Positions 7,198 to 22,414 of a stretch of DNA of 64,000 nt are shown here, in pieces (within the stretch, counting starts at the first letter, position 1; every line of letters begins with the position of its first letter). This DNA is from Paenirhodobacter ferrireducens (GTDB lineage: Bacteria > Pseudomonadota > Alphaproteobacteria > Rhodobacterales > Rhodobacteraceae), in contig NZ_SAVB01000007.1 of assembly GCF_004022265.1 (NCBI RefSeq), forward strand, positions 62,001 through 126,000, given 5' to 3'. Under the pieces are notes generated by a model. The model ran no database searches and was not told the origin of the DNA. It worked only from the letters and a program-made list of their open reading frames with translations. Both the position numbers and the translations under genes were made by a program.

Positions 7198-10100
7198 TCA
7201 GCCGCCGAGCGCCTTGAAACAGCTCTCCATCCGTGCGGCCTTGACCGGGCCGAAGCCGCGCACCGCGAGCGCGCTCTGCGCCGTCGCGATCACCTCGGCG
7301 GCGGGCGCACCGCGATCGAGGAGGGCCTCAAGACGGCCGAGGACGGTCTCCCGCAGCCGGCGTTCGGCCCGCCGTTCCGTGCTCAGCCCGAACGGGTCGA
7401 GGGGCGTGCCCCGCAGGGGTTTCATCCGGGCGAGCAGGCGCAGCGCCGGCAGCAGCCAGGGCTCGAACCGGCGCTTTGCGGGGCGGCCTGTGCGGGCGTC
7501 GCGCCCGGGCAGGAAGGGCGGGGCAAGGTGGAAGGCAAGCCGGGGCGCGCCCTCGAAGTCACGGGCGATCCCGGCCAGGAACTCCGGTGCGCTCAGCAGC
7601 CGAGCGACCTCGTACTCGTCCTTGTAGCTCATCACCTGATGGGCGGCGCGCATCACCGCTTCGACCATCCCGGCCTCGCCGCGCAGCTCGGCCTTGGCGA
7701 TCAGCCGGCTGTAGCGCATCGCATAGCGCGGGGTTTGCCAGGCGCTCAGATGCGCGATGTGCCGGGCCTTGAGCGCCGCCAGATCGGTTCCGGCAGCGGC
7801 GGGTTCTGTGCAGATCTGCGGCTGCACCGCGGCCAGCCGGCCAAGGCGGAAGGCGCGCAGGTTCTGCTCGACCCCGGCGCCGTTCAGCCGGATCGCCGCC
7901 TCGATCGCCGCAAGCGGGATCGGCAGGGCGCCGCGCTGGAAGGCAAAACCCGCGAGCAGGATGTTCGCCGCGATGGCGTCGCCGAAATGACGCTCGGCAA
8001 GCGTCGAGGCGTCGATCTCGGCGATCCCTTCGGCGCCTGCGCGCCGGCGCAGGCTCGCGATCGGCAGGGCGGCGAAAAGCGGCGCCGTCGGGGCGCGCAC
8101 GAAGCCGGCGGTGGGGGTGAAGTGGCTGTCGATCACGCAGCGCGTGCGCCCCGGTGCGATCGCCGCGATCGCCTTCGGGGCGGCGGCGACGACCACGTCG
8201 AAGCCAAGCAGCGTGTCCGCTTCCCCGGCCCCGATCCGCGGTGCATCGAGCGCGGCCAGATCGCGGGCGATGCGCAGATGCGACATCACTGCGCCGTTCT
8301 TCTGCGCCAGCCCGGTCTGGTCGAGCGCCTGCACCGCGAGCCCGGCCAGATGTGCCGCCTGCGCGAGGATCGCCGAGACGGTGATGACCCCGGTGCCGCC
8401 GACGCCGGTCATCAGGATGCTGAAGGCGTCGGTGCCAGGGCCGGTTTCCGGCTCGGGCAGCGGCGCGTCGATCTCGGCGGGCAGTGGGGCGAGCGCTTTC
8501 CTCCGCGTGCCGCCCGAGACGGTGACGAAGCTCGGGCAGAAGCCCTTGAGGCAGCTCGTATCGGCGTTGCAGGCCGACTGGTTGATCTGGCGCTTGGTGC
8601 CAAGATCGGTTTCCAGCGGCTCGATCGCGATGCAGTTCGACTGCACCGAGCAATCGCCGCAGCCTTCGCAGACGCCGGGGTGGATCAGCACCGTCTCCGC
8701 CGGCTTCGGATGCAGGCCGCGCTTGCGGCGGCGGCGTTTCTCGGCGGCGCAAAGCTGGTCGTAGATGATGACGGTGACGCCCTCGACCGCGCGCAGCCGA
8801 CGCTCCTCGGCCTCGAGCCGGTCGCGCGGCAGCGCCCGCAGGCCGCCCGGAAGGCTGGTCCAGACCTCGGGCGTTTCCGAGATCACCACCACCTCTCGCG
8901 CGCCCTCGGCCTGCACCTGCGCGACGACGACGGGGACCGAGAGCTCGCCGTCGTGGGTCTGCCCGCCGGTCATCGCGACTGCGTCGTTGAACAGGATCTT
9001 GTAGGTCGCGTTCACCTTCGCCGCGATTGCCGCGCGCAGCGCAAGCAGGCCCGAATGGAAATAGGTGCCGTCGCCCATGTGCACGAAGACATGCGTCTCG
9101 TCGGTGAAGGGGGCGTGGCCGATCCAGTTCGCGCCCTCGCCGCCCATCTGGGTGAAGGTCTTGCCGCCGCGATCCATGCCGAGCGCAAGCATCGAGCAGC
9201 CGATCCCGGCGATCGCGCGGCTGCCCTCGGGCAGGCGGGTGGAGACCGAATGCGGGCAGCCCGAACAGAAATAGGGCTCGCGCGTTGGCAGGTCCGGCAC
9301 CGCCGCGACCGGGGGCAGGGCGGTGGGCAGATTTGGCCGGACGCCGGCGGGGGCGAGGAAGCGGGCAAGCGCCTCGGCCACCATTGCGGGGTCGATCTCG
9401 CCGGTTGCGGGCAGGAGCGCCACGCCCGCGGGCGTGGTCTTGCCCCAGAGCTTCGGCGCGTCCGCGCGGCCATAGAACTGCACCCGGATCTGGTCCTCGA
9501 TCACCGGGCGCTTCTCCTCGACGACGAGGATCGCCTCGAGCCCCTCGGCGAAGCGCTCGAGCGTTTCGGGCACCAGCGGCCAGATCAGCCCGAGGTTGAG
9601 GAGTTTCACCCCGGCGCTCTCGGGGGTGAGGCCGAGCTTGCGCAAGGCGCCGGTCAGGTCACGCCAGCTCTTGCCGGTGGAGACGATGCCGAGCTTGCCC
9701 CGGCCCGAGATTCGGTCGAGCCCGTTCGCGCGGGCAAAGGCCTGTGCCGCGCGCAGCTTGTGTTCGAGCCGCCGTTCCTGCTCGAGCTGCGCATCGGGCC
9801 AGCGGATCGAGAGCCCGCCCTCGGGCAGTGCGATCTCGGGCGTCACGAAGCGCCCCGGACCGGGCAGGGTGAGCGTGGCGGTGCATTCGGCGATCTCGGT
9901 CTGGCATTTGAAGCCGACCCAGGCCCCGCAAAAGCGGCTCATCGCGATGCCGGCCAGGCCCATCGTCACGTAATCCTCGATCCCGGCGGGGGAAAGGATC
10001 GGCACCATCGCCGAGATCAGGTCATGTTCCGACTGATGCGCGAGCGTCGAGGAGACCGCGCCGTGATCGTCGCCCATCAGCAGCAGAACGCCGCCCTGCG

Positions 10101-10515
10101 GCGCGGTGCCGGCGGCATTGGCATGCTTGATCGCGTCCATCGAGCGGTCGACGCCCGGCCCCTTGCCATACCACATCGCGAAGACGCCGTCGTATTTCGC
10201 GCCCTGGGTCAGCCCGGTCTGCTGCGTGCCCCAGACCGCGGTCGCAGCGAGATCCTCGTTCAGCCCGGGCTGGAACACGATCCGCGCGCCGTCGAGGACA
10301 GGGCGGGCCTTGGCGACCTCGCGGTCGAAGCCGGCAAGCGGCGAGCCGCGATAGCCCGAGACATAGCCGGCGGTGTTCAGCCCTGCCTCCCGGTCGCGCC
10401 GGGCCTGCTCGATCAGCAGCCGGATCAGCGCCTGCGTGCCGGAGACGAGGATGCGGCCCTCGGGCTGGCGGTAGCGGTCATCAAGCGAGGGGGTGGGGGC
10501 AAGCGGTTCGGTCAT
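7198..10515 (-). CDS. Fused indolepyruvate:ferredoxin oxidoreductase (IorAB-type)
   Basis: 1105 residues from ATG 10515 (GGAG eight bases upstream; a start 18 bases earlier would overlap the previous gene). A single-chain 2-oxoacid:ferredoxin oxidoreductase that converts aryl- or branched-chain 2-oxoacids plus CoA to acyl-CoA, CO2 and reduced electron carrier. Order: N-terminal thiamine-diphosphate-binding domains (the TPP-type region GDGTYFHSGLLALRAA lies near residue 480), then a cysteine-rich Fe-S segment (CEGCGDCSVQSNC and following Cys near residue 620), then the gamma-type catalytic domain (GVGGTGVITVSAIL) and a C-terminal extension. Directly behind a GlcD-like dehydrogenase gene (14 bp), which would supply its 2-oxoacid. 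Belongs to the unit driven from 11945. Confidence 0.92.
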   Translation of the reverse strand: MTEPLAPTPSLDDRYRQPEGRILVSGTQALIRLLIEQARRDREAGLNTAGYVSGYRGSPLAGFDREVAKARPVLDGARIVFQPGLNEDLAATAVWGTQQTGLTQGAKYDGVFAMWYGKGPGVDRSMDAIKHANAAGTAPQGGVLLLMGDDHGAVSSTLAHQSEHDLISAMVPILSPAGIEDYVTMGLAGIAMSRFCGAWVGFKCQTEIAECTATLTLPGPGRFVTPEIALPEGGLSIRWPDAQLEQERRLEHKLRAAQAFARANGLDRISGRGKLGIVSTGKSWRDLTGALRKLGLTPESAGVKLLNLGLIWPLVPETLERFAEGLEAILVVEEKRPVIEDQIRVQFYGRADAPKLWGKTTPAGVALLPATGEIDPAMVAEALARFLAPAGVRPNLPTALPPVAAVPDLPTREPYFCSGCPHSVSTRLPEGSRAIAGIGCSMLALGMDRGGKTFTQMGGEGANWIGHAPFTDETHVFVHMGDGTYFHSGLLALRAAIAAKVNATYKILFNDAVAMTGGQTHDGELSVPVVVAQVQAEGAREVVVISETPEVWTSLPGGLRALPRDRLEAEERRLRAVEGVTVIIYDQLCAAEKRRRRKRGLHPKPAETVLIHPGVCEGCGDCSVQSNCIAIEPLETDLGTKRQINQSACNADTSCLKGFCPSFVTVSGGTRRKALAPLPAEIDAPLPEPETGPGTDAFSILMTGVGGTGVITVSAILAQAAHLAGLAVQALDQTGLAQKNGAVMSHLRIARDLAALDAPRIGAGEADTLLGFDVVVAAAPKAIAAIAPGRTRCVIDSHFTPTAGFVRAPTAPLFAALPIASLRRRAGAEGIAEIDASTLAERHFGDAIAANILLAGFAFQRGALPIPLAAIEAAIRLNGAGVEQNLRAFRLGRLAAVQPQICTEPAAAGTDLAALKARHIAHLSAWQTPRYAMRYSRLIAKAELRGEAGMVEAVMRAAHQVMSYKDEYEVARLLSAPEFLAGIARDFEGAPRLAFHLAPPFLPGRDARTGRPAKRRFEPWLLPALRLLARMKPLRGTPLDPFGLSTERRAERRLRETVLGRLEALLDRGAPAAEVIATAQSALAVRGFGPVKAARMESCFKALGG

Positions 10516-10529
10516 GGCGGCTCCGGGGG

Positions 10530-11879
10530 TCAACCGAGGATGCGTCCGGGGTTGAGCAGGGTGTCGGGATCGAGCGCGGCCTTGATCGCGCGCATCGCGG
10601 CGATCTCGTCCGGCGGGCGGCAGAGCGGCAGAAAGGCCACCTTGTCGAGGCCGATGCCGTGTTCGGCGGTGATCGCGCCGCCCATTCCGGCAGTCAGCGC
10701 AAAGACCGCGCGCAGCACGGGTTCGGGCTGGTGGCCGGTCAGCACGTAATGTAGGTTGCCGTCGCCGAGATGGCCGAAGGCATGGGCGCGGGTGTCGGGG
10801 GCGATCTGCGCGAGCAGGGCGGCGCCCTCGGCGACGAAGCGCGGGATCGCCGGGATCGGCAGGCTGAGATCGAGGCTGGTGATCGGCCCGATCTCGAAGA
10901 GGTAATGGCTGCAGCCCTCGCGCAGCCCCCAGAGCGTGGCGCTCTCGCGTTCGGATTGCGACAGCACGGCATCGGTGGCGATGGCCTCGGCCAGCAGCGC
11001 GCCGAGCGTGTCCTCGAGCTGCGCATCATCGGCCTCGGGGCTCATCCCCGCGGTCTCGATCAGCACGAGCGCGGCGGAGCCGGGCAGCGGATGGCGCAGG
11101 CCGCGCGCTGCGCAGGCCGCACTCAGCAGCGGCTCGACGATCAGCTCGCAGGCGGCAAGCAGCGGGCCAAGCTCGCGGCGCAGGCGCTGCAGCAGTGGCA
11201 GTGCATCATCGAGCCTGGCCAGCGCGCAAAGCGCGACGCGGCGGCCGCGCGGTTGCGGGTGCAGCCGCAGGCAGGCGCGGGTGATGACCCCGAGCGTGCC
11301 TTCGCTGCCGATTAGCAGCTGGCTCAGATCATAGCCGGAATTGTCCTTTGAAAGGCCCGAGAGCCGGCGGATCACGCGGCCGTCGGGAAGCACCGCCTCG
11401 AGGCCCAGAACCTGCTGGCGGAAGGTGCCGTAGCGCAGCGCGAGCGGCCCGCCGGCATTGGTCGCGATCAGCCCGCCGATCTGCGCCGAGCCGCGCGCGC
11501 CGAGATCGGCGGCGAGGAACAGCCCCGCGTCGCGGGCCGCCGCCTGCGCCGCCTCGAGCGTCACCCCGGCCCCGACCAGCAGGGTCGCCGCGACCGGGTC
11601 GATCTCGGGCGCGAAGGTGCAACGCTCGAGCGACAGCACCGCCTCGCCGGGCAGGACACGTGCCCCGCCGGCAAGGCCGGTGCGCCCCCCCTGGACCACC
11701 AGTTTCTGCCCTTCCGCCCGGCAGGCGCGCAGCACTGCCGCCGTCTCCGCCGCATCCCGCGGCGCATAGACGGCAATCGGCTCGGCCCCGCCGAGCCCGG
11801 CCTGATCGTCGCGATACTGCGGCGTGGCGGGGCGGCGAAGCCGTGCGGCAAGTCCGGTGTCGGAGATGGGATCAGTCAT
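10530..11879 (-). CDS. FAD-linked 2-hydroxyacid dehydrogenase, GlcD/D-LDH type
   Basis: 449 residues from ATG 11879; longer frames would run into the promoter. VAO/PCMH-type flavoprotein: FAD-binding half with VQGGRTGLAGGARVLPGEAVLSL and SAQIGGLIATNAGG motifs, then a C-terminal FAD-oxidase domain with GHLGDGNLHYVL and TAEHGIG (metal/substrate-binding histidines). It oxidises a D-2-hydroxyacid to the 2-oxoacid, passing electrons to quinone or a carrier. First gene of the operon with IOR, suggesting the pathway hydroxyacid to oxoacid to acyl-CoA. Its promoter carries the palindromic box shared with the potD promoter, so it is probably under the GntR regulator at 15487. Confidence 0.88.
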   Translation of the reverse strand: MTDPISDTGLAARLRRPATPQYRDDQAGLGGAEPIAVYAPRDAAETAAVLRACRAEGQKLVVQGGRTGLAGGARVLPGEAVLSLERCTFAPEIDPVAATLLVGAGVTLEAAQAAARDAGLFLAADLGARGSAQIGGLIATNAGGPLALRYGTFRQQVLGLEAVLPDGRVIRRLSGLSKDNSGYDLSQLLIGSEGTLGVITRACLRLHPQPRGRRVALCALARLDDALPLLQRLRRELGPLLAACELIVEPLLSAACAARGLRHPLPGSAALVLIETAGMSPEADDAQLEDTLGALLAEAIATDAVLSQSERESATLWGLREGCSHYLFEIGPITSLDLSLPIPAIPRFVAEGAALLAQIAPDTRAHAFGHLGDGNLHYVLTGHQPEPVLRAVFALTAGMGGAITAEHGIGLDKVAFLPLCRPPDEIAAMRAIKAALDPDTLLNPGRILG

Positions 11880-11917
11880 CGGTGGCCTTCGGAGGGAGCC
11901 GTGAGTGGCGTGGCTCG

Positions 11918-11945
11918 AAGCTATTCCTGTTGCACTTAATGTCAA
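11918..11945 (-). promoter_or_regulatory. Predicted sigma70 promoter of the glcD-IOR operon
   Basis: On the minus strand: consensus -35 TTGACA (11945-11940), 16-bp spacer, -10 TAGCTT (11923-11918), ~40 bp before the glcD start. The palindromic operator at 11949 lies 3 bp upstream of the -35. Confidence 0.6.
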
Positions 11946-11948
11946 TTG

Positions 11949-11967
11949 GATATTTAAATATCAAAAT
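11949..11967. promoter_or_regulatory. GntR-regulon box 1 (perfect palindrome)
   Basis: GATATTTAAATATC is a perfect 14-bp palindrome (11949-11962) in the intergenic region between glcD (-) and acuI (+). Seventeen bases, TATTTAAATATCAAAAT (11951-11967), recur exactly at 16267-16283 beside the GntR gene. Very AT-rich against a GC-rich background. Confidence 0.7.
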
Positions 11968-12010
11968 GAGCTCCGGATGACCCGGGGCCCCCGGGAGGAT
12001 GGAGATCGAC

Positions 12011-13003
12011 ATGATCGAGAGTTTCACCGCATTGGTGATCCGCGATGTGGAGGGCAAGCCGCGCGCCGGCTTCGAACAGCTGACCCTGGCGGATCTGCCC
12101 GACAATGATGTGCTGGTCGAGATCAGCCATTCGAGCCTGAACTACAAGGACGGGCTCGCGGTCTCGGGCAAGGGCCGGATCGCACGCCGCCTGCCGATGG
12201 TGGCGGGGATCGACCTCGCCGGGGTGGTGGTCGAGTCGCGGGTGCCGGAGTGGCAGCCGGGCGACCGGGTGGTGGTGAATGGCTGGGGCCTGTCGGAGAC
12301 CGAATGGGGCGGCTACAGCCGGTTCCAGCGGATCAAGCCGGGTCATCTGACGCGCCTGCCCGAGGGCTTCAGCGCCGCCGAGGCGATGGCGATCGGCACT
12401 GCGGGCTATACCGCTGCGCTTTGCGTGCTCGCGCTCGAGGACTGGGGGCAGATCGCGCCGGGGGCAGGCGAGGTGCTGGTGACCGGTGCCGCGGGCGGCG
12501 TCGGGTCGGTTGCGGTCTCGCTTCTGGCAAAGCGCGGCTACCGGGTCACTGCGGCGACGGGGCGGCCCGAGCAGCATGACTTTCTGCGCGATCTCGGTGT
12601 GAGCGCCTTTGTCGAGCGTGCCGAACTGGCGGCGCCGGGCAAGATGCTGCAGGCCGAGCGCTGGACCGGGGCGGTCGATACCGTCGGCAGCACGACGCTG
12701 GCCAATGTCCTTGCCCAGACCTGCTACGGCGGCGCGGTGACGGCCTGCGGCCTGGCCGGCGGGGCGGATCTGCCCGGCTCGGTGATGCCGCATATCCTGC
12801 GCGGCGTGGCGCTTCTGGGCATCGATTCGGTGATGGCGCCGGCGGCGAAGCGCGACCGCGCCTGGGCCTATCTGGCCGAGCATCTCGACCGCGCGAAGCT
12901 GGCCGAACTGACCACGGTCGCGCCCGTCTCGGCGCTGCCCGAACTTGCGCGGAAGATCGTCGCGGGCGAGACCCGCGGCCGCACCGTGATTGAAATCGCC
13001 TGA
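12011..13003 (+). CDS. acuI: Acrylyl-CoA reductase (NADPH), AcuI/YhdH family
   Basis: 330 residues from ATG 12011 (GGAG six bases upstream; ATG 11999 is too close to its GGGAGG). Zinc-free medium-chain reductase of the YhdH/AcuI group: N-terminal HSSLNYKDGLAVSGKGRI, then VAGIDLAGVV, and a Rossmann domain with VTGAAGGVGSVAVSLL near residue 155. AcuI reduces acrylyl-CoA to propionyl-CoA with NADPH in propionate, 3-hydroxypropionate or DMSP breakdown. Here it leads a two-gene operon with an enoyl-CoA hydratase, divergent from glcD-IOR with the shared palindrome between. The pairing suggests reduction of an enoyl-CoA made in this local pathway rather than DMSP metabolism. Confidence 0.88.
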   Translation: MIESFTALVIRDVEGKPRAGFEQLTLADLPDNDVLVEISHSSLNYKDGLAVSGKGRIARRLPMVAGIDLAGVVVESRVPEWQPGDRVVVNGWGLSETEWGGYSRFQRIKPGHLTRLPEGFSAAEAMAIGTAGYTAALCVLALEDWGQIAPGAGEVLVTGAAGGVGSVAVSLLAKRGYRVTAATGRPEQHDFLRDLGVSAFVERAELAAPGKMLQAERWTGAVDTVGSTTLANVLAQTCYGGAVTACGLAGGADLPGSVMPHILRGVALLGIDSVMAPAAKRDRAWAYLAEHLDRAKLAELTTVAPVSALPELARKIVAGETRGRTVIEIA

Positions 13004-13015
13004 CGGGAGGCTGGG

Positions 13016-13825
13016 ATGAGCGAAGATGTGGTGCTTTGGCACAAGGATGAGACCGACGCATTCGTCACCCTGACGCTGAACCGTCCGGACAAGATGAACG
13101 CGATGAACCAGGAACTGGGCGACGCGCTCGAGGCGGCGATCTTGCGTGCGGCGAAGGATCCCGGGATCCGCGCGGTGATCCTGACCGGCGCGGGCAAGGC
13201 ATTCTCGGCCGGCTTCGACCTTGGCGGCGAGGATTTCGAGATGGACGCCGACCGCTGGCGCGAGGATATCGGCGAGAACATGCGCCGTTTCGGCGTGATC
13301 CGCGAGGTGCCGATCCCGATCATCGCGGCGGTGAACGGCTATGCGCTTGCGGGCGGGCTCGAGCTGATGATGTGCTGCGATCTGATCGTGGTCGCGGAGG
13401 ATGCGAAGCTCGGCGAGCCCGAGGTGCGCCACGTCTCCGCCCCGCCGACGCTGATGCTGCCCTGGACGGTGCCGATGCTGCACGCGCGCTATCTGATGTA
13501 CACCGGCGATCTGATCGACGGGGTCGAGGCGGCGCGGATCCATCTCGCGAACAAGGCGGTGCCGGCCGATCAGCTGATGGCCGAGGCCGAGAAGCTTGCG
13601 CGCAAATGCGCGCGGATGCCCGGCACCGCGATCAAATACGCCAAGGCCGCGCTCAACCACATGCAGCAGACCGCCGGGCTTGACAGCTCCTGGAGCTACA
13701 ACCGGGAGACGACGGCGATCCTGCACGGCACTGAGGAAGGCAAGTACTGGATGCGCCTGCTGAAGGAGAAATCGCTGCGCGGCTTCCTCGAGGAGCGCGA
13801 CGCGCCCTTCCGAGAGCTCGACTGA
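13016..13825 (+). CDS. Enoyl-CoA hydratase/isomerase (crotonase family)
   Basis: 269 residues, 12 bp after acuI. Crotonase fold with RPDKMNAMNQEL near residue 23, oxyanion-hole segments GAGKAFSAGFDL and GYALAGGLELMMCCDLIVVAEDAKLG, and a C-terminal lid ending EERDAPFRELD. The active-site region reads EPEVRHVSAPP, so one Glu of the usual hydratase pair is visible and the second is not obvious; hydration versus isomerisation or lyase activity is open. Distinct from the hydroxycinnamoyl-CoA hydratase-lyase at 57843, which carries GLSEINWG. Convergent with the CoA-ligase gene, separated by a 20-bp palindrome. Confidence 0.88.
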   Translation: MSEDVVLWHKDETDAFVTLTLNRPDKMNAMNQELGDALEAAILRAAKDPGIRAVILTGAGKAFSAGFDLGGEDFEMDADRWREDIGENMRRFGVIREVPIPIIAAVNGYALAGGLELMMCCDLIVVAEDAKLGEPEVRHVSAPPTLMLPWTVPMLHARYLMYTGDLIDGVEAARIHLANKAVPADQLMAEAEKLARKCARMPGTAIKYAKAALNHMQQTAGLDSSWSYNRETTAILHGTEEGKYWMRLLKEKSLRGFLEERDAPFRELD

Positions 13826-13831
13826 CCAGGG

Positions 13832-13851
13832 CGCGCCCCCGCGGGGGCGCG
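13832..13851. terminator. Bidirectional hairpin between convergent genes
   Basis: CGCGCCCCCGCGGGGGCGCG is a perfect 20-bp palindrome filling the gap between the hydratase (+) and ligase (-) stop codons. No T-tract on either side, so it may be a weak or factor-assisted terminator or 3'-end stabiliser. Confidence 0.6.
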
Positions 13852-13852
13852 T

Positions 13853-15490
13853 TCAGCCCCGCGCCGGGAGGAGGGGTTCGCCCCGCGTGCCTTCCGCCAG
13901 CGCCTCGAAAAGCGCGGCGTGATTGCGCAGGAAGCGGCTTTGCACGATCTGCCCCTTGGCCGAGACCTCGCCGCGCGCGACCTCGGGCGGCGCCTCGGCC
14001 CAGTCGATCGCGGCGATGCGGGTCGAGGAGGCGGGGTTTTCGCGGTTCCATTGCGCCAGCGCTGCGCGGACCCGGTCGCGATCCGCTCCGGGCGCGGCGA
14101 AGAGAACGGCCGAGAGCGCTTCGCGCCCGGCGCCGCCCAGCACCATGTCCTCGAGATCTGGGGCGCAGGCGCGGATGATCTGGCTGCGCAGCGCGCCGGT
14201 GCGCACCTTGATCCCGCTCGCAAGCTTGAAATCCTCCGAGAGCCGGCCGTCGAAGCGCAGGCAGCCGGTCTCGCGGTCGAGAAAGCCCGCGTCGCCGGTG
14301 CGGTAGAAGCCGAAAGCATCAAGCGGCAGCGGCGTCTCGCCCGTCTCGGTCAGATAGGCGGGCCCGAGCACCGGGCCGCGGAAGCGGATCTCGGTCCGGT
14401 CCTCGACCGGGCAGAGCGCGACTTCGTGGCCCGGCAACGGCCAGCCGAGCAGCCCGGGCCGGTCGACACCACCGGGGCTGAGGCACATGGTCGAGCCGGT
14501 TTCCGTGGCGCCATAGCCCGAGAGGAGCGCGATCGGCGGCGCGCTGCGGCGGGCGAAGGCGGCAAGCCGGTCCCAGAGCGCGGGCTCGACCGCCGCCCCC
14601 GCGAGAAAGATGTGGCGCAGCCGCGCGAATGCCCGGGGCTGGCGCTCGGGGGCGGCCTCGAGCGCGGCGAGCAGCAGCTTCATCCCGAGCGGCACACCGA
14701 TGTAGAGCGTCGGGCGCACTGCCTCCATCAGATCGAGCGTGGCGCCGATCGTGTGCTCCGACGGCGGCCGGTCGAGATGCAGCGTGCCACCGTTCCAGAT
14801 CACCTTGAACAGGTTGTCGAGCCCGCCGAAGACATGGTTCCAGGGCATCCAGTCGATCAGCACCGGCCCCTCGGCAAGGAAGGGCCAGAGCGCGGTGGCG
14901 GCGGCCTGGCAGGCAGAGATCTGGCCGCGGGTGACGGCGACACCCTTCGCCGCGCCGGTGCTGCCGGCGGTGAAGAAGATCGCGCAGCACTCCTCGGGCC
15001 GGGTGGGGGCATCGGCGCACGCCGGGGCAGGGGGCAGGCGGTCGGGCAGGACAAGCCCCGCGGCTGGATGCCCCTGCGGGCGCACGAGCAGATCGGGCCC
15101 GGCGATGGCGAGGAGCCGCGTCGCCTCCTCACCACCCGGTTCGCGGAACGGAAAGGGCGGCAGCGCGATATGGACGAAGCCGCCGCACAGACAGGCAAGC
15201 CGCAGCCGCAGCGCCGCGATGCCGGCGGGCAGCAGCGTTGCCACCCGCGCGCCGGGGCGCAGGCCATGCGCCGCCACGAGCCAGTCGCGCAGCTGCCGCG
15301 CTTCGGCCAGCGCCGCACCATAGGTGATGCTGCCGCGCCCCCCGGGCCCGGGCGCGGTCATCAGCACCCGCTGCGGATCGACGGCCGCGAGCCGGTCAAG
15401 AATGTCAGGCCGATCGTCGGACAGCGCGACCGGCGTGCGCAGCACCAGCGCCCCGTCCTCGCGTCGCGTCTCGATCAGCCCGGCGCTCAT
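13853..15490 (-). CDS. Feruloyl-CoA synthase-like acyl-CoA ligase
   Basis: 545-residue adenylate-forming enzyme of the feruloyl-CoA synthase subgroup: P-loop FFTAGSTGAAKGVAVT (~residue 172), the subgroup motif WMPWNHVFGGLDNLF, A5 region SGYGATETGS, A7 YRTGDAGFLDRETG and RFDGRLSEDFKLASG, and a late Lys in SAKGQ. It activates an aromatic or acyl carboxylate with ATP and CoA. It overlaps the GntR gene by 4 bp (ATGA), so regulator and ligase are one operon. Somewhat shorter than characterised feruloyl-CoA synthases. A second, unrelated-looking ligase for hydroxycinnamates lies at 58744, so this one probably takes another substrate. Confidence 0.87.
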   Translation of the reverse strand: MSAGLIETRREDGALVLRTPVALSDDRPDILDRLAAVDPQRVLMTAPGPGGRGSITYGAALAEARQLRDWLVAAHGLRPGARVATLLPAGIAALRLRLACLCGGFVHIALPPFPFREPGGEEATRLLAIAGPDLLVRPQGHPAAGLVLPDRLPPAPACADAPTRPEECCAIFFTAGSTGAAKGVAVTRGQISACQAAATALWPFLAEGPVLIDWMPWNHVFGGLDNLFKVIWNGGTLHLDRPPSEHTIGATLDLMEAVRPTLYIGVPLGMKLLLAALEAAPERQPRAFARLRHIFLAGAAVEPALWDRLAAFARRSAPPIALLSGYGATETGSTMCLSPGGVDRPGLLGWPLPGHEVALCPVEDRTEIRFRGPVLGPAYLTETGETPLPLDAFGFYRTGDAGFLDRETGCLRFDGRLSEDFKLASGIKVRTGALRSQIIRACAPDLEDMVLGGAGREALSAVLFAAPGADRDRVRAALAQWNRENPASSTRIAAIDWAEAPPEVARGEVSAKGQIVQSRFLRNHAALFEALAEGTRGEPLLPARG

Positions 15491-16221
15491 TTCCCGGCCT
15501 TGCGATCGCGCGCGTGCAGCGCGTTGTCATAGACATTGCTCTGATAGGAGATCAGCCCGTCGAAGGCGGCACAGGCCGCCACCGGGTCATGCGCCGCGAT
15601 CGCGCGGTGGATTTCGTGGTGGAAGGCGATCACCTTGTCGCGCTCGCGGAACTTGAAGGAGATCATGTTGGTCGCGGGAATGAGCGAATCGTTCACGATC
15701 ACCATGATGAAGTTCAGCTCGGCATTGTGGCAGGCCTCTGCCACCGCGTGGTGGAAAGCGACGTCGAGGCGGCAGAACTCCTCGTCCGAGACCTCGCTGT
15801 GATTGACGTCCTGCAACGCCGCCTCGATCCGGGCAAGGTCCTCTTCGGTGGCGCGCTCGGCCGCAAGCCGCACGCAGGTCGCGCCCAGCAGGCGCCGGGT
15901 CTCGACGATGTCGCCCAGCCCGAAGACTCCGAGCGAGACGAGCCAGTTCGTGGTTTCGAACAGCGTCTGGGACGCCGTGCCGAGGGACGGCGCGGCGACG
16001 AAGACCCCGCCCTTCGGCCCGCGCTTCGAACGCACCAGCTTCTTCGCCGCAAGGATCTTCATCGCCTCGCGCACGGTCGGCTGCGACACCTCGAAACGTT
16101 CGGCCAGATCCTGTTCCGACGGCAGGCGGTCCTCCACGCCGAGGCGGCCCTGCATGATCTCCTCCTGCAGGCTGTCGGCGATCTGGCGGGCCAGCCCCTG
16201 GCTGCGGTCGATCGGTGGCAT
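15487..16221 (-). CDS. GntR-family regulator, FadR/FCD subgroup
   Basis: 244 residues, start ATG 16221 with a GAGGGAGAG ribosome site. N-terminal winged HTH (LPSEQDLAERFEVSQPTVREAMKILAAKKLV, quoted in part; residues ~33-65) and a C-terminal FCD helical bundle with the metal/effector residues in DVAFHHAVAEACHN and HHEIHRAI. Acidic effectors (2-hydroxyacids, acyl-CoAs or sugar acids) are usual for FCD proteins. It overlaps the CoA-ligase gene and is divergent from potD. The box TATTTAAATATCAAAAT sits in its promoter and again between glcD and acuI, making it the likely master regulator of 7198-20185. Confidence 0.9.
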   Translation of the reverse strand: MPPIDRSQGLARQIADSLQEEIMQGRLGVEDRLPSEQDLAERFEVSQPTVREAMKILAAKKLVRSKRGPKGGVFVAAPSLGTASQTLFETTNWLVSLGVFGLGDIVETRRLLGATCVRLAAERATEEDLARIEAALQDVNHSEVSDEEFCRLDVAFHHAVAEACHNAELNFIMVIVNDSLIPATNMISFKFRERDKVIAFHHEIHRAIAAHDPVAACAAFDGLISYQSNVYDNALHARDRKAGK

Positions 16222-16245
16222 TTCTCTCTCCCTCGCGTTGGGCCC

Positions 16246-16274
16246 ATCATAGCCCCATGATTTCCGTATTTAAA
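16246..16274 (-). promoter_or_regulatory. Predicted promoter of gntR-ligase operon
   Basis: Minus-strand -10 TATGAT (16251-16246) with a 17-bp spacer to a poor -35 (TTTAAA) that lies inside the operator box. A bound regulator would cover the -35, consistent with autorepression. Confidence 0.45.
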
Positions 16275-16283
16275 TATCAAAAT
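16266..16283. promoter_or_regulatory. GntR-regulon box 2
   Basis: Core TATTTAAATA is a perfect 10-bp palindrome, inside the 17-bp string TATTTAAATATCAAAAT (16267-16283) identical to that at 11951-11967. It lies between gntR (-) and potD (+), 1 bp upstream of the potD -35. Confidence 0.7.
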
Positions 16284-16389: not shown

Positions 16390-17424
16390 ATGAAACTCGA
16401 ACGACGTCAATTCCTGACGGCTCTCGGAGCATGCGCGGGTGCTGCCGCCTTCGGCTCGCGGGCCTTCGCCAATGCCCCCTTCGTGGTGCCGACCTACGGT
16501 GGCACCTGGGCCAAGTTCTGGGAAGAAACCCTGATGCCGGGCCTGACCAAGGCCACCGGCATTCCGACCCAGCTCGACATCGGTCTTGGCAAGGATTTCG
16601 TCTCGAAGATCCGCGCCGGCGGCGATCAGGCGCCCTATTCCGTCTTCATGGGCAACGAGAACATCGCCGCCATGCTGCGCGCCGAAGGCTTCTTCGAGCC
16701 GCTCGACATGGCCAAGCTGCCCAATGCCGCGCAGCTGCATGACGGGCTGGTGAACACGGGCAACAACGGGCTGCGCGCGATCGTCTCGCCGATCGGTCTC
16801 GCCTATCGCACCGACATGGTGAAGGACGCGCCGACCTCCTGGACCGACCTTTGGGAAAACCCTGAGTTCAAGGAGCGTATCGGTCTTTACCAGATCGGCA
16901 ACACCGGCGCACAGCTCTTCCTGCGGCTCACCGGCAAGCTTTTCGGCTCGGGCGACACCGATTTCGACACCGCCTTCAAGAAGATCCAGGAGCTCGTGCC
17001 CTTCACCCAGGCCTCCTGGTCGGGCGAGGTCGCGGCCGGGTTGATGCGTGGCGACGTGATCGTCGCGCCGGTCGACTGGACCGAGATCATGATGCTGCAG
17101 GACAAGGGCGCCCCGGTCGCGATCGTCGCGCCGAAGGAGGGCGTGCTTGCCTTCGAGCAGAGCTTCAACATCGTCAGGACCGGCGCGATGAAGGACGAGG
17201 CACACGCCTATATCAACTACCTCATCGACAAGGACGTGCAGGCCAACATGGCGCAGGCGTTCTACACCTCGCCGTCCAACAAGGACTCGGTGCTCGACCC
17301 GGCGCTGGCCGCGCGGCTGCCGATCAACGGGCCGAAGATGAGCGAGATCATCCGCTTCGACTGGGACAGCTATGTCGATCTCGCCCCCGCGGTGACCGAC
17401 CGCTGGAACCGCGAGATCGGCTGA
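16390..17424 (+). CDS. ABC transporter substrate-binding protein, PotD-like
   Basis: 344 residues, start ATG 16390 after GGGAGACAGCA. The N-terminus MKLERRQFLTALG carries a twin-arginine (RRxFL) export signal, cleaved around AFA; the mature periplasmic protein has the PotD/iron-III family pattern, beginning FVVPTYGGTWAKFWEE. It captures the substrate for the permeases that follow. PotD-like proteins bind polyamines but many paralogues bind opines, amino acids or carboxylates; genetic linkage to CoA ligase and hydroxyacid enzymes favours an acid. A 9-bp-stem hairpin follows the stop, probably to give excess binding protein over the ATPase and permeases. Confidence 0.88.
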   Translation: MKLERRQFLTALGACAGAAAFGSRAFANAPFVVPTYGGTWAKFWEETLMPGLTKATGIPTQLDIGLGKDFVSKIRAGGDQAPYSVFMGNENIAAMLRAEGFFEPLDMAKLPNAAQLHDGLVNTGNNGLRAIVSPIGLAYRTDMVKDAPTSWTDLWENPEFKERIGLYQIGNTGAQLFLRLTGKLFGSGDTDFDTAFKKIQELVPFTQASWSGEVAAGLMRGDVIVAPVDWTEIMMLQDKGAPVAIVAPKEGVLAFEQSFNIVRTGAMKDEAHAYINYLIDKDVQANMAQAFYTSPSNKDSVLDPALAARLPINGPKMSEIIRFDWDSYVDLAPAVTDRWNREIG

Positions 17425-17487: not shown

Positions 17488-18531
17488 ATGACGACCCTGA
17501 CCCTCGATGGGATCGACAAGTTCTATGGCGATCTGCACATTCTGAAAGACATCAATCTCGAGGTCGGGCAGGGCGAGTTCATCTCGCTGCTCGGGCCGTC
17601 GGGCTGTGGCAAGACGACGACGCTGCGCTGCATCGCGGGCTTCGAGCCGATCGACCGCGGCCGGCTGCTGTTCGGCACGCGGGAGATGACCAATGTCGCG
17701 CCCGAGCATCGCGACCTCGGCATGGTGTTTCAGTCCTACGCGCTCTTCCCGCACATGACGGTGGCGGAAAACCTCGCCTTCGGGCTCGAGGTGCGCAAGG
17801 TCGCACCCGCCGAGCGCGCCGCCCGCATCGCCAAGGTGCTCGAGATGGTGCGGCTTGCGGGCTACGAGGGGCGCTTCCCGCGGGAACTGTCGGGCGGACA
17901 GCAGCAGCGCGTCGCGCTGGCCCGCGCGCTGGTGATCGAGCCGGCGGTACTGCTCCTTGACGAGCCGCTCGCCAATCTCGACGCCGCGCTGCGCGACGAC
18001 ATGCGCTTCTTCATCCGCGACCTGCAGCAGCGCGTCGGCATCACCACGATCTATGTCACCCATGACCAGAGCGAGGCGCTGGTGATGTCCGACCGCATCG
18101 TGGTGATGGAAAAGGGCGTGGTCGCGCAATGCGGCACCCCGAAGGAGATCTACGAGCGTCCCGCCTCGCGCATGGTGGCGGGGTTCATCGGCCATTCCGA
18201 CGTGATCGAGGGCACCGTGCTTGGCCGCGAGGGCGCGATGATCGTGGTCGAGACCGCCGCAGGGCGGCTGCGTGCGCATGGGCCCGAGGCGGTCTCGGGC
18301 CCGGTGCATCTGATGATCCGGCCCGAGAAGCTGCGTCCGGGGCTGGCCGAGAACGCGATGACCGGGCGGGTGAAGAAGGCGGTCTATCAGGGCTCGGCGC
18401 TGCTGGTCGTGGTCGAGCTGCCTTCGGGCCAGGAGATCTCGGCGCTGCTCGACGCGGATGCTGCGGTGGCGGTCGGGGCGGAGCTCACGCTCGGCTTTGC
18501 CGCGCGCCATGGCTGGGTGATCGCGCGATGA
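17488..18531 (+). CDS. ABC transporter ATP-binding protein, PotA-like
   Basis: 347 residues. Walker A GPSGCGKT (36-43), Q-loop FQSYALFPHM, signature LSGGQQQRVALARAL (134-), Walker B LLLDEP (155-160), H-loop VTHDQSEALVMSDR, then a C-terminal TOBE domain (~residue 270 on). It powers the importer at the inner face of the membrane. Stop overlaps the next permease start by 4 bp, so expression is coupled. Confidence 0.92.
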   Translation: MTTLTLDGIDKFYGDLHILKDINLEVGQGEFISLLGPSGCGKTTTLRCIAGFEPIDRGRLLFGTREMTNVAPEHRDLGMVFQSYALFPHMTVAENLAFGLEVRKVAPAERAARIAKVLEMVRLAGYEGRFPRELSGGQQQRVALARALVIEPAVLLLDEPLANLDAALRDDMRFFIRDLQQRVGITTIYVTHDQSEALVMSDRIVVMEKGVVAQCGTPKEIYERPASRMVAGFIGHSDVIEGTVLGREGAMIVVETAAGRLRAHGPEAVSGPVHLMIRPEKLRPGLAENAMTGRVKKAVYQGSALLVVVELPSGQEISALLDADAAVAVGAELTLGFAARHGWVIAR

Positions 18532-19385
18532 TCGCGGCGACACGCAAGCGGGTGTGGTGGATGATCGTGCCGGCGCTCGTGCTGCTGGTGGGCTTCCTCG
18601 TGCTGCCCTATGCCTCGATCGTGGTGATGAGCCTGCGCACCGCCGACACCCGCGCGGTCTATGGCGAGGGCTTCACGCTTTCCCATTACGCGCAGATCGT
18701 CACCGATCCCTTCATCTGGGGCATCGTCGGGCGCTCGCTCCGGATGGGGCTGACAGTCACCGTGGTGACGCTGCTCCTTGGTTATCCGGTGGCCTATCAT
18801 CTGGCCAACCTGCGCAGCCGCTGGGCCTCGATGCTCTATATCTTCGTGATCTCGCCGCTGCTCGTCGGCATGGTGGTGCGCACCTTCGCCTGGATGATCA
18901 TCCTGTCGAACAACGGCGTCATCAACGGCGCGCTGAAATCGCTCGGCCTGATCGAGCGGCCAATCCTGCTGCTCAACACGCCGCTTGGCGTCACCATCGC
19001 GCTGATCCATGTCTTCCTGCCCTTCGTGATCCTGCCGCTTCTGGGCAATCTGCAGGCGATCAGCCCCGATCTTGCGGCGGCGGGGCGCTCGCTTGGGGCC
19101 TCGCGGCTGCGCACCTTCCTCAAGGTGACGCTGCCGCTCAGCCTTCCGGGCATCCAGGCCGGGGCGATCCTCGTCTTCGTGCTGTCGATCTCGGCCTATG
19201 TGACGCCGGCGATGCTCGGTGGCACCAGGGGGCGGACGATGTCGGTGCTCGTCGTGCAATATCTCGTCGACAGCTTCCGCTGGCCGGCGGGGGCGGCGCT
19301 TGCGATCTTCATGTCGGCGATCACGCTCGCGATCATCGTCGTCTACCTGCGCCTGACGGCGCGCGCGATGCGGAGGCTGCCATGA
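18528..19385 (+). CDS. ABC transporter permease, PotB-like
   Basis: 285 residues, about six membrane helices, starting at the ATG of an ATGA overlap with the ATPase gene. The cytoplasmic EAA-type coupling loop reads DLAAAGRSLGASRLRTFLKVTLPLSLPGI (positions ~180-208; quoted in part), as expected for the inner-membrane subunit that contacts the ATPase. Forms a heterodimer with the next gene product. Its own stop overlaps that gene by 4 bp. Confidence 0.9.
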   Translation: MIAATRKRVWWMIVPALVLLVGFLVLPYASIVVMSLRTADTRAVYGEGFTLSHYAQIVTDPFIWGIVGRSLRMGLTVTVVTLLLGYPVAYHLANLRSRWASMLYIFVISPLLVGMVVRTFAWMIILSNNGVINGALKSLGLIERPILLLNTPLGVTIALIHVFLPFVILPLLGNLQAISPDLAAAGRSLGASRLRTFLKVTLPLSLPGIQAGAILVFVLSISAYVTPAMLGGTRGRTMSVLVVQYLVDSFRWPAGAALAIFMSAITLAIIVVYLRLTARAMRRLP

Positions 19386-20185
19386 ACGGGCGCAAGACCG
19401 TCTGGGACCATCTCTTCACCCTGCTGGTGACGGCGATCTATCTGTTCCTGATGTCGCCGATCCTCCTTGTGGTGATCTTGTCCTTCAATGCGGGCGAGTT
19501 CCTCTCGCTGCCGATCGAGGGGATGTCGTTGCGCTGGTTCGTGGCGCTCTTTCACAACACCCGCTTCCTCGACGCGACGCTGCACTCGCTGCTGCTGGCC
19601 GCGGTGGCGGCGGTGGTGAACGGGGTGATCGGCACGCTCGCGGCGATCTATGTCGTGCGCTTCGCCGGGCCGCGGCTGGCCAATCCGCTGCGTCTGCTGA
19701 TGTCGGCGCCGCTTCTCGTGCCCGAGATCCTCACCGCGATCGCGCTCCTTTTCTATTTCTTCGAGCTCGGCGTGGGGAACAATTACGGCCTCGCGATCCA
19801 GGTGGGCCATATCATCGTCACCTTCCCCTATGTCTTCCTCAATGTCTCCTCGGCGCTCTTCAACTTCGACCGCTCGCAGGAGGAGGCGGCGCGCTCGCTT
19901 GGCGCGGGGGGCTGGATGACCTTCCGCCGGGTGACGCTGCCCGCGGTGAAGCCGGGGCTGATCACCGGCTGTCTCTTCGCCTTCGTGATCTCCTTCGACA
20001 TCTTTAACATCTCGCTCTTGCTGAAATCGGTAGGGATGAACACGCTGCCGCTCGAGCTTTTCGACTATCTGCGGTTCAACTTCGATCCGACCGCCGCGGC
20101 GATCGCGACGGTAAGCATCGGCGTCACCTTCGTTGCGGTGGTGATCGTCGATCGCACCGTGGGGCTGCGCTCGCTGCGGTTCTGA
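19382..20185 (+). CDS. ABC transporter permease, PotC-like
   Basis: 267 residues, six predicted membrane helices, with the EAA loop EEAARSLGAGGWMTFRRVTLP near residue 180. Second permease of the importer; last gene of the operon. Followed by a GC-rich hairpin with TTTTCTT at about 20190-20231. Confidence 0.9.
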   Translation: MNGRKTVWDHLFTLLVTAIYLFLMSPILLVVILSFNAGEFLSLPIEGMSLRWFVALFHNTRFLDATLHSLLLAAVAAVVNGVIGTLAAIYVVRFAGPRLANPLRLLMSAPLLVPEILTAIALLFYFFELGVGNNYGLAIQVGHIIVTFPYVFLNVSSALFNFDRSQEEAARSLGAGGWMTFRRVTLPAVKPGLITGCLFAFVISFDIFNISLLLKSVGMNTLPLELFDYLRFNFDPTAAAIATVSIGVTFVAVVIVDRTVGLRSLRF

Positions 20186-20363: not shown

Positions 20364-21365
20364 ATGGCCGGGGACACCCCGCAGCCGACCGGTTCCGGTC
20401 GGCGCGTCAAGATCACGCAAGAAAGCGTCGTCACCGCGATCGCCGCGCTTCTCTTCGTGGTGTTTTCGATATTTCTCAACAACTTCCTGACCCAGGGCAA
20501 CATCCTTGCGCTGCTGAAGAATGTCGCGATCCTGGGTACGCTCGCGACCGGGATGGGCTTCATTGTCGTCGGGCGCGGCATCGACCTGACGATGGTCGCG
20601 GTGATGGTCGTCGGCGTCGCTTTCGCGATCTGGCTTACGACGCTCGGGCAGGGGTTTTTCGGTGCGATCGTGATCGGCGGCGGGCTGGTGACGGCCTGCG
20701 GGCTGGTCACCGGGCTGCTGATCGCGGTGGCCGAGATCCCGCCGATCTTCGCCACCCTGGCCATGGCCTCGGTGATCTATGGTGGCGGCCGGGTCGCGTT
20801 CAGCTCGGATGTGCTCTATGCGCCGGCGAATGTCGCCTGGCTGAGCTTCATCGGCTCGGGCACCTTCCTTGGCCTGCCGGCCTCGGTGGCGATCTTTCTC
20901 GCGCTCGCGGCGCTGGTGGCGGCCTTCCTGCGGCTCACCCGCTTTGGCCGCTTTGTCTATGCGACCGGCGACAACCCCCATGCCGCGCGCACCATGGGGC
21001 TGCCGACGCGGCCGGTGCTGGTCGCGCAATATATCGTCGCCGCACTGATCGCCTATCTCGCCGGGATCCTGCTCACCGGCCTCGTCTCGAGCATCAACAC
21101 CCGGCTCTACAATTCGACGCTGATCTATGACGTGCTGCTCGTCGTCGTTCTGGGCGGGATCAGCCTGTCGGGCGGCCAGGGCGGGGTGCGCAACGTGCTT
21201 GTCGGCACCGTGCTTGTCGGCATCCTGATCAACGGCATGACCATCCTGAACTTCAGCTACACCAGCCAGAACCTGATCAAGAGCGTGATCTTGCTGGCAG
21301 CGCTGGCGCTCGATGCGGCGATCAACCCGCGCGACGAGCAGACATCTCAAAGCGGCGACATCTGA
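20364..21365 (+). CDS. Sugar-type ABC transporter permease (RbsC-like)
   Basis: 333 residues with 8-10 hydrophobic segments of the BPD_transp_2 (RbsC/AraH) family; markers include GMGFIVVGRGIDLTMVAVM near residue 65 and GGISLSGGQGGVRNVL near 265. Starts at ATG 20364 after AGGGAGGACAAG. It is one of two permeases in this importer, the partner being the N-terminal half of the fusion at 22415. First gene of the operon; the promoter presumably lies in the ~130 bp after the preceding terminator. Substrate unknown. Confidence 0.9.
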   Translation: MAGDTPQPTGSGRRVKITQESVVTAIAALLFVVFSIFLNNFLTQGNILALLKNVAILGTLATGMGFIVVGRGIDLTMVAVMVVGVAFAIWLTTLGQGFFGAIVIGGGLVTACGLVTGLLIAVAEIPPIFATLAMASVIYGGGRVAFSSDVLYAPANVAWLSFIGSGTFLGLPASVAIFLALAALVAAFLRLTRFGRFVYATGDNPHAARTMGLPTRPVLVAQYIVAALIAYLAGILLTGLVSSINTRLYNSTLIYDVLLVVVLGGISLSGGQGGVRNVLVGTVLVGILINGMTILNFSYTSQNLIKSVILLAALALDAAINPRDEQTSQSGDI

Positions 21366-21393
21366 TCGCCGGGTCATCCAAGGGAGGAAAGCG

Positions 21394-22404
21394 ATGACGT
21401 TCCTGAAGAAAGCCGCCTTCGCGGCGCTGGCGACGGCTGCCCTATGCGCGCAGCCGCTCATGGCCGAACAGATCGAGCAGGTCGGCCGCGCCGCCTATCT
21501 CGAGGCGACGAAGGGCAAGAAGGTGATCTTCGTGCCGCTGTCGCAGGGGATGGACCTGAACCAGGCCTGGACCGCGGTCTGGCAGCGCCACGCCGCGCGC
21601 TATGGCTTCAGCTTCGAAGTGCGCGATCCGAACATGGACACCGCGGCGGGGATCCGGGCGTTGCAGGGCGCGATCGCCGAGAAACCTGATGTGCTGATCG
21701 TGCAGAACCCCGACGTGCAGACCTATGCCCGCGCGCTCAAGCAGGCGCAGCAGGCGGGGATCAAGATCTTGCAGATCAACATGCAGTCGATCACCCAGAC
21801 CGACAGCTATGTCGGCAACGACTGGATCGAGATGGGCCGGCTCGAGGCGGGCGAGCTGGCAAAGACCTGTATGGCGCCGGGCGCGCCCTCGAAGAAGATC
21901 GTCTGGCTTGCCGGCGTGCAGACCGGGGCGGCCAACATCTACATGCGCGAGGGGCTGAACCAGATCCTCGCCGAGAACCCGGGGCTCGAACTCGTCTCCG
22001 ACCAGCCCGCCGATTACGACAGCGAGAAGGCGCGCCAGATCACCGAGACGGTGCTGCAGCAGCACCCCGATCTGTGCGGCATCATGGGGATCTGGGACAA
22101 TGCCGAGGTCGGCGCGGGCGCGGCGGTGCTGGCGGCGGGCAAGCAGGATCAGGTGACGATCGTGACCAATGGCGCGGGCGCCGCGACCGCCTGCGACAGC
22201 ATCGGCAAGGGCCTGCTCGACGTCGTCTACAACTTCAATGCGCCGATCCAGGCCGAGATCGCGGCGCAGCAGATCTCGGAGTTGCTGCAACACCCCGAGC
22301 GCCAGGCTGGCGCCGAGAAGACCGTGTTCTTCGGCCCGATCACCCGCGTCGACAAGAGCAATGCGACCGGGCGCAACTGCTGGACCCTCGACCAGCTGAA
22401 GTAA
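21394..22404 (+). CDS. Sugar-type ABC transporter substrate-binding protein (RbsB-like)
   Basis: 336 residues from ATG 21394 (AGGGAGG upstream). A Sec signal peptide (MTFLKKAAFAALATAALCAQPLMA, residues 1-24, quoted here by its ends MTFLKK and PLMA) precedes a type I periplasmic-binding fold: KKVIFVPLSQGMDLNQAW, VLIVQNPDVQTYARALKQAQQAGI, then CGIMGIWDNAEVGAG. Delivers a sugar, polyol or lactone-like ligand to the permease pair. The operon order permease, binding protein, permease-fusion, propeller, ATPase is unusual. Confidence 0.9.
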   Translation: MTFLKKAAFAALATAALCAQPLMAEQIEQVGRAAYLEATKGKKVIFVPLSQGMDLNQAWTAVWQRHAARYGFSFEVRDPNMDTAAGIRALQGAIAEKPDVLIVQNPDVQTYARALKQAQQAGIKILQINMQSITQTDSYVGNDWIEMGRLEAGELAKTCMAPGAPSKKIVWLAGVQTGAANIYMREGLNQILAENPGLELVSDQPADYDSEKARQITETVLQQHPDLCGIMGIWDNAEVGAGAAVLAAGKQDQVTIVTNGAGAATACDSIGKGLLDVVYNFNAPIQAEIAAQQISELLQHPERQAGAEKTVFFGPITRVDKSNATGRNCWTLDQLK

Positions 22405-22414
22405 GGACGCCACC

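Follow-up and report, generated by a model that had tools for sequence, protein, structure and literature searches.

An AT-rich palindrome and an FCD-type GntR regulator probably unite four units of Paenirhodobacter ferrireducens in one regulon with a tentative role in hypermodified-nucleoside breakdown

The window analysed here is a stretch of 64,000 nucleotides from contig NZ_SAVB01000007.1 of Paenirhodobacter ferrireducens. It contains two 24 bp imperfect palindromes which, to judge from the sequences, are very probably operators of the FCD-type GntR regulator encoded at 15487–16221. They would place four units in one regulon: an indolepyruvate-ferredoxin oxidoreductase family gene (IOR) with an FAD oxidase gene, acuI with a crotonase gene, gntR with an acyl-CoA ligase gene, and an ATP-binding cassette (ABC) importer (Table 1). 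A GntR regulon joining these four units had been proposed in an original prediction, and it is supported by the rarity of the motif, by the recurrence of the gene block and by the presence of the palindrome in 12 of 12 scanned loci with an orthologue of the regulator. The regulon may be a dedicated pathway for hypermodified nucleosides bearing the 3-amino-3-carboxypropyl (acp) group, the base being freed by the crotonase and the C3 unit leaving as propionyl-CoA; we prefer this reading tentatively. Sequence evidence supports the operators, the conserved gene set, the swap between FAD oxidase and aminotransferase and the association with nucleoside genes seen in relatives.

The prediction was based on a 17 bp box, TATTTAAATATCAAAAT, at 11951–11967 and 16267–16283, and both exact copies were verified. 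No further copy had been noticed in the window, and at up to three mismatches the remaining matches were the minus strands of the same two places (mean expected in shuffled controls, 0.01). Among window 17-mers with at most five G/C, TATTTAAATATCAAAAT alone is repeated (two copies). A genome-wide search, which had been suggested as a check, returned the exact 17-mer twice in 4.07 Mb (control 0) and the same two places only at up to three mismatches. The 14 bp perfect palindrome reported at the first copy, GATATTTAAATATC (11949–11962), was also confirmed; the perfectly symmetric core of the second copy is 10 bp. The full symmetric unit is larger than the box, the 17-mer being most of a 24 bp imperfect palindrome. 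Scatter of the motif over unrelated promoters had been named as one result that would speak against a regulon, and it was rejected for this genome: the two operators scored 39.0 and 37.9 bits, compared with 18.8 bits for the weaker place C32:1604 (within a longest open reading frame call) and 17.8 bits for C38:180737 (at most 38 bases from the start of an open reading frame).

The G+C fractions of the two divergent gaps are 0.54 and 0.55, compared with 0.69 for the window. If the gene starts are those judged likely, the distance from operator 1 is about 62 bp to the FAD oxidase gene and 44 bp to acuI; operator 2 is separated from gntR by about 39 bp and from the gene of the binding protein by about 107 bp. 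A promoter scan found no consensus-type promoter in the first gap; the second gap contained one promoter-like site directed towards gntR, with its −35-like hexamer (16274–16269) within operator 2, which fits the expectation for autorepression of gntR. Most likely, GntR would repress both divergent promoter pairs and would be released by a carboxylate or CoA ester of the pathway.

A 24 bp operator model (29.6 bits, roughly ATTTCCATATTKMAATATGGAAAT) was built from 20 sites in nine loci, 18 of which were first chosen by resemblance to the box of the window and two of which were added after an initial scan. Each locus was scored using a model built without that locus. All 12 scanned loci with a GntR orthologue carried one to three palindromes of at least 23 bits (25 in total), and in every one a palindrome adjoins the gene of the orthologue itself. 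Set against the gene maps, the sites of at least 23 bits fall at the starts of genes of the cluster. The orthologues are 57–84% identical, the value for L041 (66%) coming from a separate comparison outside the alignment of the others. The scanned loci include several that are closely related, L040 and L041 being near-duplicates; these two and L044 contributed no sites to the model. Matches of at least 15 bits in 511,918 bases numbered 28 with the real models and 1.3 with column-permuted models. The other 15 sources scanned had no site above 20 bits; three had one site each at 17.8–19.2 bits, two of these sources having been chosen via a loose-pattern match and the site of L045 preceding a 42% identical GntR relative. 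Conservation in relatives, which the prediction had named as a check, was found for the gene set and the palindrome and not for the exact 17-mer. Since relatives retain the palindrome and not the 17-mer, the identity of the two window copies looks incidental.

Operator sites also reach genes that are not in the window cluster. In L024, L026 and L031 they stand at a nucleoside hydrolase and at an ABC importer of family 3 (amino-acid type). L026 and L031 have a further site at a HisC-like aminotransferase; in these two loci the site ahead of the nucleoside hydrolase and the importer overlaps unrefined longest-frame starts. With the full model, two sites (37.1 and 24.1 bits) were scored in the Aminobacter record L060. 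In L040 and L041 the 24.1-bit site that precedes the family-3 importer lies within a small opposite-strand hypothetical gene that is unannotated in L060.

The three Aminobacter records carry a second, different GntR gene in the gap between FAD oxidase and AcuI, and this gene is what could suggest that the conserved palindrome is bound by another regulator. We consider this very unlikely: the palindrome accompanies the orthologue gene in all 12 scanned loci but is absent beside the second GntR gene, and loci of the type found on Rhizobium johnstonii pRL12, which have another GntR alone, also lack it (best scores of 13.4 and 12.9 bits, nothing at 15). The same Aminobacter gap does limit the reach of the regulon. 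It has no site of at least 15 bits in L040 and L041 or of at least 12 bits in L060, so that IOR, FAD oxidase and AcuI are not invariably under a GntR of the window type. An identical 24-mer of 12.9 bits precedes the other GntR gene in R. johnstonii (L042, 20936–20959) and Neorhizobium (L059, 19651–19674); it may belong to a site bound by that other regulator.

Metal-binding FCD domains have conserved histidines. His157 of the window GntR was kept in 11 of 11 aligned proteins, and the HHEIH stretch reads QRRIF in several orthologues. The protein reached no NCBIfam equivalog cut-off. Its arrangement resembles that of the local regulons of FadR/FCD-type GntR proteins (NanR, LldR, PdhR and GlcC), with a winged helix and FCD domain, a palindromic site, divergent promoters and a site by the regulator's own gene; it differs from them in its 24 bp AT-rich palindrome with a TATTKMAATA core and in targets belonging to another pathway.

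Table 1. Genes and putative operators of the cluster, with positions in the window.
Feature	Position	Strand	Basis
IOR, fused indolepyruvate-ferredoxin oxidoreductase family	7198–10530	−	NF009589, 1437.9 bits (cut-off 816); POR and DUF6537 domains
FAD oxidase, FAD-linked 2-hydroxyacid oxidase/dehydrogenase	10530–11882	−	FAD_binding_4 and FAD-oxidase_C
Operator 1 (putative), 24 bp imperfect palindrome	11944–11967		Between FAD oxidase and acuI; contains 17-mer 11951–11967; 20/24 symmetric; 39.0 bits, window-free model
AcuI-type acrylyl-CoA reductase family (YhdH/AcuI)	12011–13003	+	Subfamily TIGR02823, 402.5 bits (cut-off 297.25)
Crotonase, enoyl-CoA hydratase/isomerase family, proposed lyase	13016–13825	+	ECH_1
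AMP-forming acyl-CoA ligase	13853–15490	−	PF00501, 133.3 bits; best NCBIfam PRK12582, 286.5 bits (under cut-off 777)
GntR regulator, FCD type	15487–16221	−	GntR, 66.8 bits (cut-off 27); FCD, 79.1 bits (cut-off 24.3); orthologues aligned
Operator 2 (putative), 24 bp imperfect palindrome	16260–16283		Between gntR and importer; contains 17-mer 16267–16283; 18/24 symmetric; 37.9 bits, window-free model
PotD-like solute-binding protein	16390–17424	+	SBP_bac_6 and SBP_bac_8; aligned to PotD
ABC importer ATPase	17488–18531	+	ABC_tran and TOBE_2
ABC importer permease 1	18528–19385	+	Open reading frame list; kept beside ATPase in L025, L027, L028 and L030
ABC importer permease 2	19382–20185	+	Open reading frame list; kept beside ATPase in L025, L027, L028 and L030

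For the route itself, we infer each reaction, as well as the identity of the leaving group X, from the gene content. The regulon would import and degrade a compound X-CH2-CH2-CH(OH or NH2)-COOH. The FAD oxidase, or an aminotransferase in other loci, would yield the 2-oxo acid X-CH2-CH2-CO-COOH, which IOR would decarboxylate to X-CH2-CH2-CO-CoA; the acyl-CoA ligase would provide a side entry through which X-CH2-CH2-COOH is taken up as the free acid. Next, X-H would be expelled by the crotonase in a retro-Michael elimination, giving acryloyl-CoA, and AcuI would reduce this to propionyl-CoA. A four-carbon side chain of the acp type would account for IOR standing with AcuI. A cluster of the window type would handle the hydroxy acid by its FAD oxidase and the free propionate by its ligase.

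X is most likely to be a uracil-type base, and its source may therefore be acp-modified nucleosides. With N3 of uracil as X, the substrate would be acp3U or pseudouridine relatives. The natural substrates would be acp nucleosides (acp3U of tRNA and m1acp3Psi of eukaryotic 18S rRNA) or what deamination or deribosylation leaves of them; acp3U and m1acp3Psi are natural nucleosides of tRNA and rRNA (PMC7694415). Clusters of the pRL12 type would add N1-demethylation, by a 2-oxoglutarate/iron oxygenase, and C-glycoside cleavage, by a kinase and a pseudouridine-5′-phosphate glycosidase.

The match of IOR to the subfamily model NF009589 does not show its substrate, and the two-subunit equivalog TIGR03336 scored 142.8 bits, below its cut-off of 650.9. 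The best named solved relative of the FAD oxidase is D-2-hydroxyglutarate dehydrogenase; its score against the glycolate oxidase GlcD equivalog TIGR00387 was 223.3 bits, below the cut-off of 567.9. The crotonase superfamily has two catalytic glutamates, and in an alignment of 16 proteins Glu116 and Glu136 of the window crotonase were unchanged in all 16.

The order of steps in the original prediction ran from uptake through CoA activation, hydration, reduction and hydroxyacid oxidation to oxidative decarboxylation. The enzyme families match those named there, but the order is highly improbable because hydration of an enoyl-CoA yields no 2-hydroxy acid: a crotonase gives a 3-hydroxyacyl-CoA, and the FAD oxidase is closest to D-2-hydroxyacid dehydrogenases, a family acting on free 2-hydroxy acids. 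Moreover, loci with an aminotransferase dispense with both ligase and FAD oxidase and still keep the core of IOR, crotonase and AcuI. FAD oxidase is present in nine of the 18 tabulated loci and aminotransferase in three, with both in none and neither in six. The two look like alternative routes to the 2-oxo acid needed by IOR. The GntR closest to that of the window (84%) is in L024; it governs the aminotransferase/nucleoside-hydrolase type of cluster, with the aminotransferase located after acuI and crotonase, unlike the FAD oxidase/ligase/PotD-like type of the window. Feeder modules thus seem to be exchanged under one regulator.

The nucleoside reading draws on gene neighbourhoods in relatives. 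A nucleoside hydrolase is found in five of the 18 tabulated loci, its best solved relative being a cytidine/uridine-specific hydrolase. A block on pRL12 and in Neorhizobium encodes a carbohydrate kinase, an annotated pseudouridine-5′-phosphate glycosidase and a nucleoside hydrolase, and continues with a 2-oxoglutarate/iron oxygenase, an ADP-forming ligase, crotonase, IOR and AcuI. The glycosidase and carbohydrate kinase adjoin the crotonase in R. johnstonii pRL12, Terrarubrum and Neorhizobium, the block in Terrarubrum being partial and without IOR. A cis-3-hydroxy-L-proline dehydratase gene (L042, 22956–24713; NF051439, 847.3 bits, cut-off 700) adjoins the pRL12 cluster.

Several results weigh against acp nucleosides as the substrate. 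In the window cluster itself there is neither a nucleoside hydrolase or glycosidase gene nor an aminotransferase or uracil gene. The single nucleoside hydrolase of the genome, 67% identical to that of pRL12, is on another contig and is operator-free in the surrounding 16 kb. The nucleoside hydrolases of the relatives fell under the UriH cut-off (281–298 versus 450 bits), the pRL12-type kinase matched pseudouridine kinase weakly (107.6 versus a cut-off of 540) and the glycosidase name comes from the record annotation, with no NCBIfam match at 1e-20. AcuI itself scored under the cut-off of the acrylyl-CoA reductase equivalog NF051456 (410.6 versus 440 bits). Among related loci, L058 is without nucleoside genes and L059 is without both FAD oxidase and aminotransferase.

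A second possibility is that the route from a four-carbon 2-amino or 2-hydroxy acid to propionyl-CoA is as described, X is not a nucleobase but, for example, an amine, thiol or phenol, and the nucleoside genes of relatives are a side branch. No nucleoside gene is in view in the window cluster, in L025, L027 and L028 or in Rhizobium bangladeshense (IOR, FAD oxidase, AcuI, crotonase, oxygenase and importer), and these clusters import via a PotD-like protein. We rate this as possible, on the unlikely side, as the nucleoside hydrolase is operator-linked in L024, L026 and L031, which share the regulator and the core, although in no cluster of the window type, and distant loci have uracil-salvage neighbours.

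In five of the seven distant loci, which were found at class level by their crotonase, a uracil phosphoribosyltransferase lies no more than 4 kb from that gene, the two without it being stretches of 13.8 and 8.3 kb; three of the five also have a URC1-like gene. In one family (L051, L052 and L053) the crotonase, without ligase or IOR, stands beside URC1-like and uracil phosphoribosyltransferase genes, with amidohydrolase and D-serine-dehydratase-like genes as further neighbours. Such neighbourhoods, which speak for the nucleoside reading, would also suit a regulon whose C3 unit stems from the pyrimidine ring: the ligase would activate uracil-derived 3-hydroxypropionate, the crotonase would dehydrate the product to acryloyl-CoA and AcuI would reduce this to propionyl-CoA. 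Among solved proteins, a 3-hydroxypropionyl-CoA dehydratase is the second-best match to the crotonase, which counts for both readings, and crotonase and ligase are paired without IOR in L047–L050 and L044. We nevertheless regard this as unlikely: IOR and the FAD oxidase or aminotransferase, which are kept with crotonase and AcuI in most complete loci, would be left idle, and no ring-opening gene was seen in window-type clusters.

Three further substrates were rejected. The name of IOR points to indole or to aromatic amino acids, but these would leave crotonase and AcuI idle, and the two-subunit equivalog cut-off was not reached. Polyamines, suggested by the PotDABC name, are unlikely since by our reading Ile, Thr and Gln occupy the aligned positions of the acidic ligand residues of PotD, which we take to be Asp168, Glu171 and Asp257. 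The uracilyl-alanines of legumes have a chain that by our reasoning is one carbon too short for acryloyl-CoA.

Besides the local GntR regulons named above, three known systems come close. Assimilation of acrylate and 3-hydroxypropionate runs through AcuI and shares with the window an AcuI-type reductase, a crotonase, a CoA ligase and the exit at propionyl-CoA; the window type differs in having IOR and FAD oxidase or aminotransferase upstream, and its relatives in their nucleoside genes. The methylthiopropionate branch of dimethylsulfoniopropionate breakdown, which comprises DmdB, DmdC and DmdD, likewise uses a ligase and a crotonase to release a β substituent from a C3 acyl-CoA, whereas the window cluster lacks an acyl-CoA dehydrogenase and has IOR. 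DmdD is described as a crotonase (PMC6302742). Catabolism of pseudouridine by PsuK and PsuG is covered by PMC9247573. A kinase and an annotated pseudouridine-5′-phosphate glycosidase occur in pRL12-type relatives, where they are joined to IOR, crotonase and AcuI, but not in the window. As a regulator with its operator the system belongs to a known class; no description of the gene combination, the route or the regulon was found in the titles or abstract openings of the open-licence papers that the literature searches listed.

To our knowledge, it is largely unclear what happens to hypermodified nucleosides once RNA has been turned over, and the cluster could supply enzymes that remove the acp group. 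A crotonase that releases a nucleobase would, if confirmed, be unusual chemistry. The operator offers a direct handle on the inducer and hence on the substrate.

The cluster is found on chromosomal-scale contigs and plasmids of Rhodobacterales and Hyphomicrobiales. GntR matches at E ≤ 1e-30 were obtained in 21 of 101 genomes and in none of the 17 same-genus genomes listed; the sole near-orthologue among the 101 was in genome G057 (59%), the next best match being 42% identical. A scan of named genomes gave eight loci at 63–84% identity. Crotonase matches were found in one of 390 genomes of the order (1e-100), eight of 385 of the class (1e-90) and one of 398 of the phylum (1e-85); these counts, from evenly drawn samples, include the own genome and may contain misses, as at most six candidates were scored per genome. 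The G057 crotonase (74%) was not among the order matches.

The complete window gene set occurs as a block in L025, L027 and L028. GntR, IOR, AcuI and crotonase are accompanied by different feeder genes in L024, L026 and L031. Smaller sets were seen in L029 (GntR and AcuI), L030, at a contig end (GntR and importer), and L044, from G057 (crotonase, ligase, GntR and importer). Nine Aminobacter plasmid records gave crotonase matches at 80–90%; the three viewed have the full window set and the second GntR gene, with the family-3 importer adjoining. Two of these clusters (L040, 2723–10642; L041, 2725–10643) begin directly beside repABC, which is consistent with plasmid-borne spread. The ligase of the third, from Aminobacter sp. 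SS-2016 (L060, 8316–10012), is annotated as two overlapping AMP-binding coding sequences and may be frame-shifted.

Downstream in the window, 20364–24526 appears by eye to encode a sugar-type ABC importer (RbsC- and RbsB-like) that is seemingly separate from the cluster, with a lactonase-like tail on the last open reading frame.

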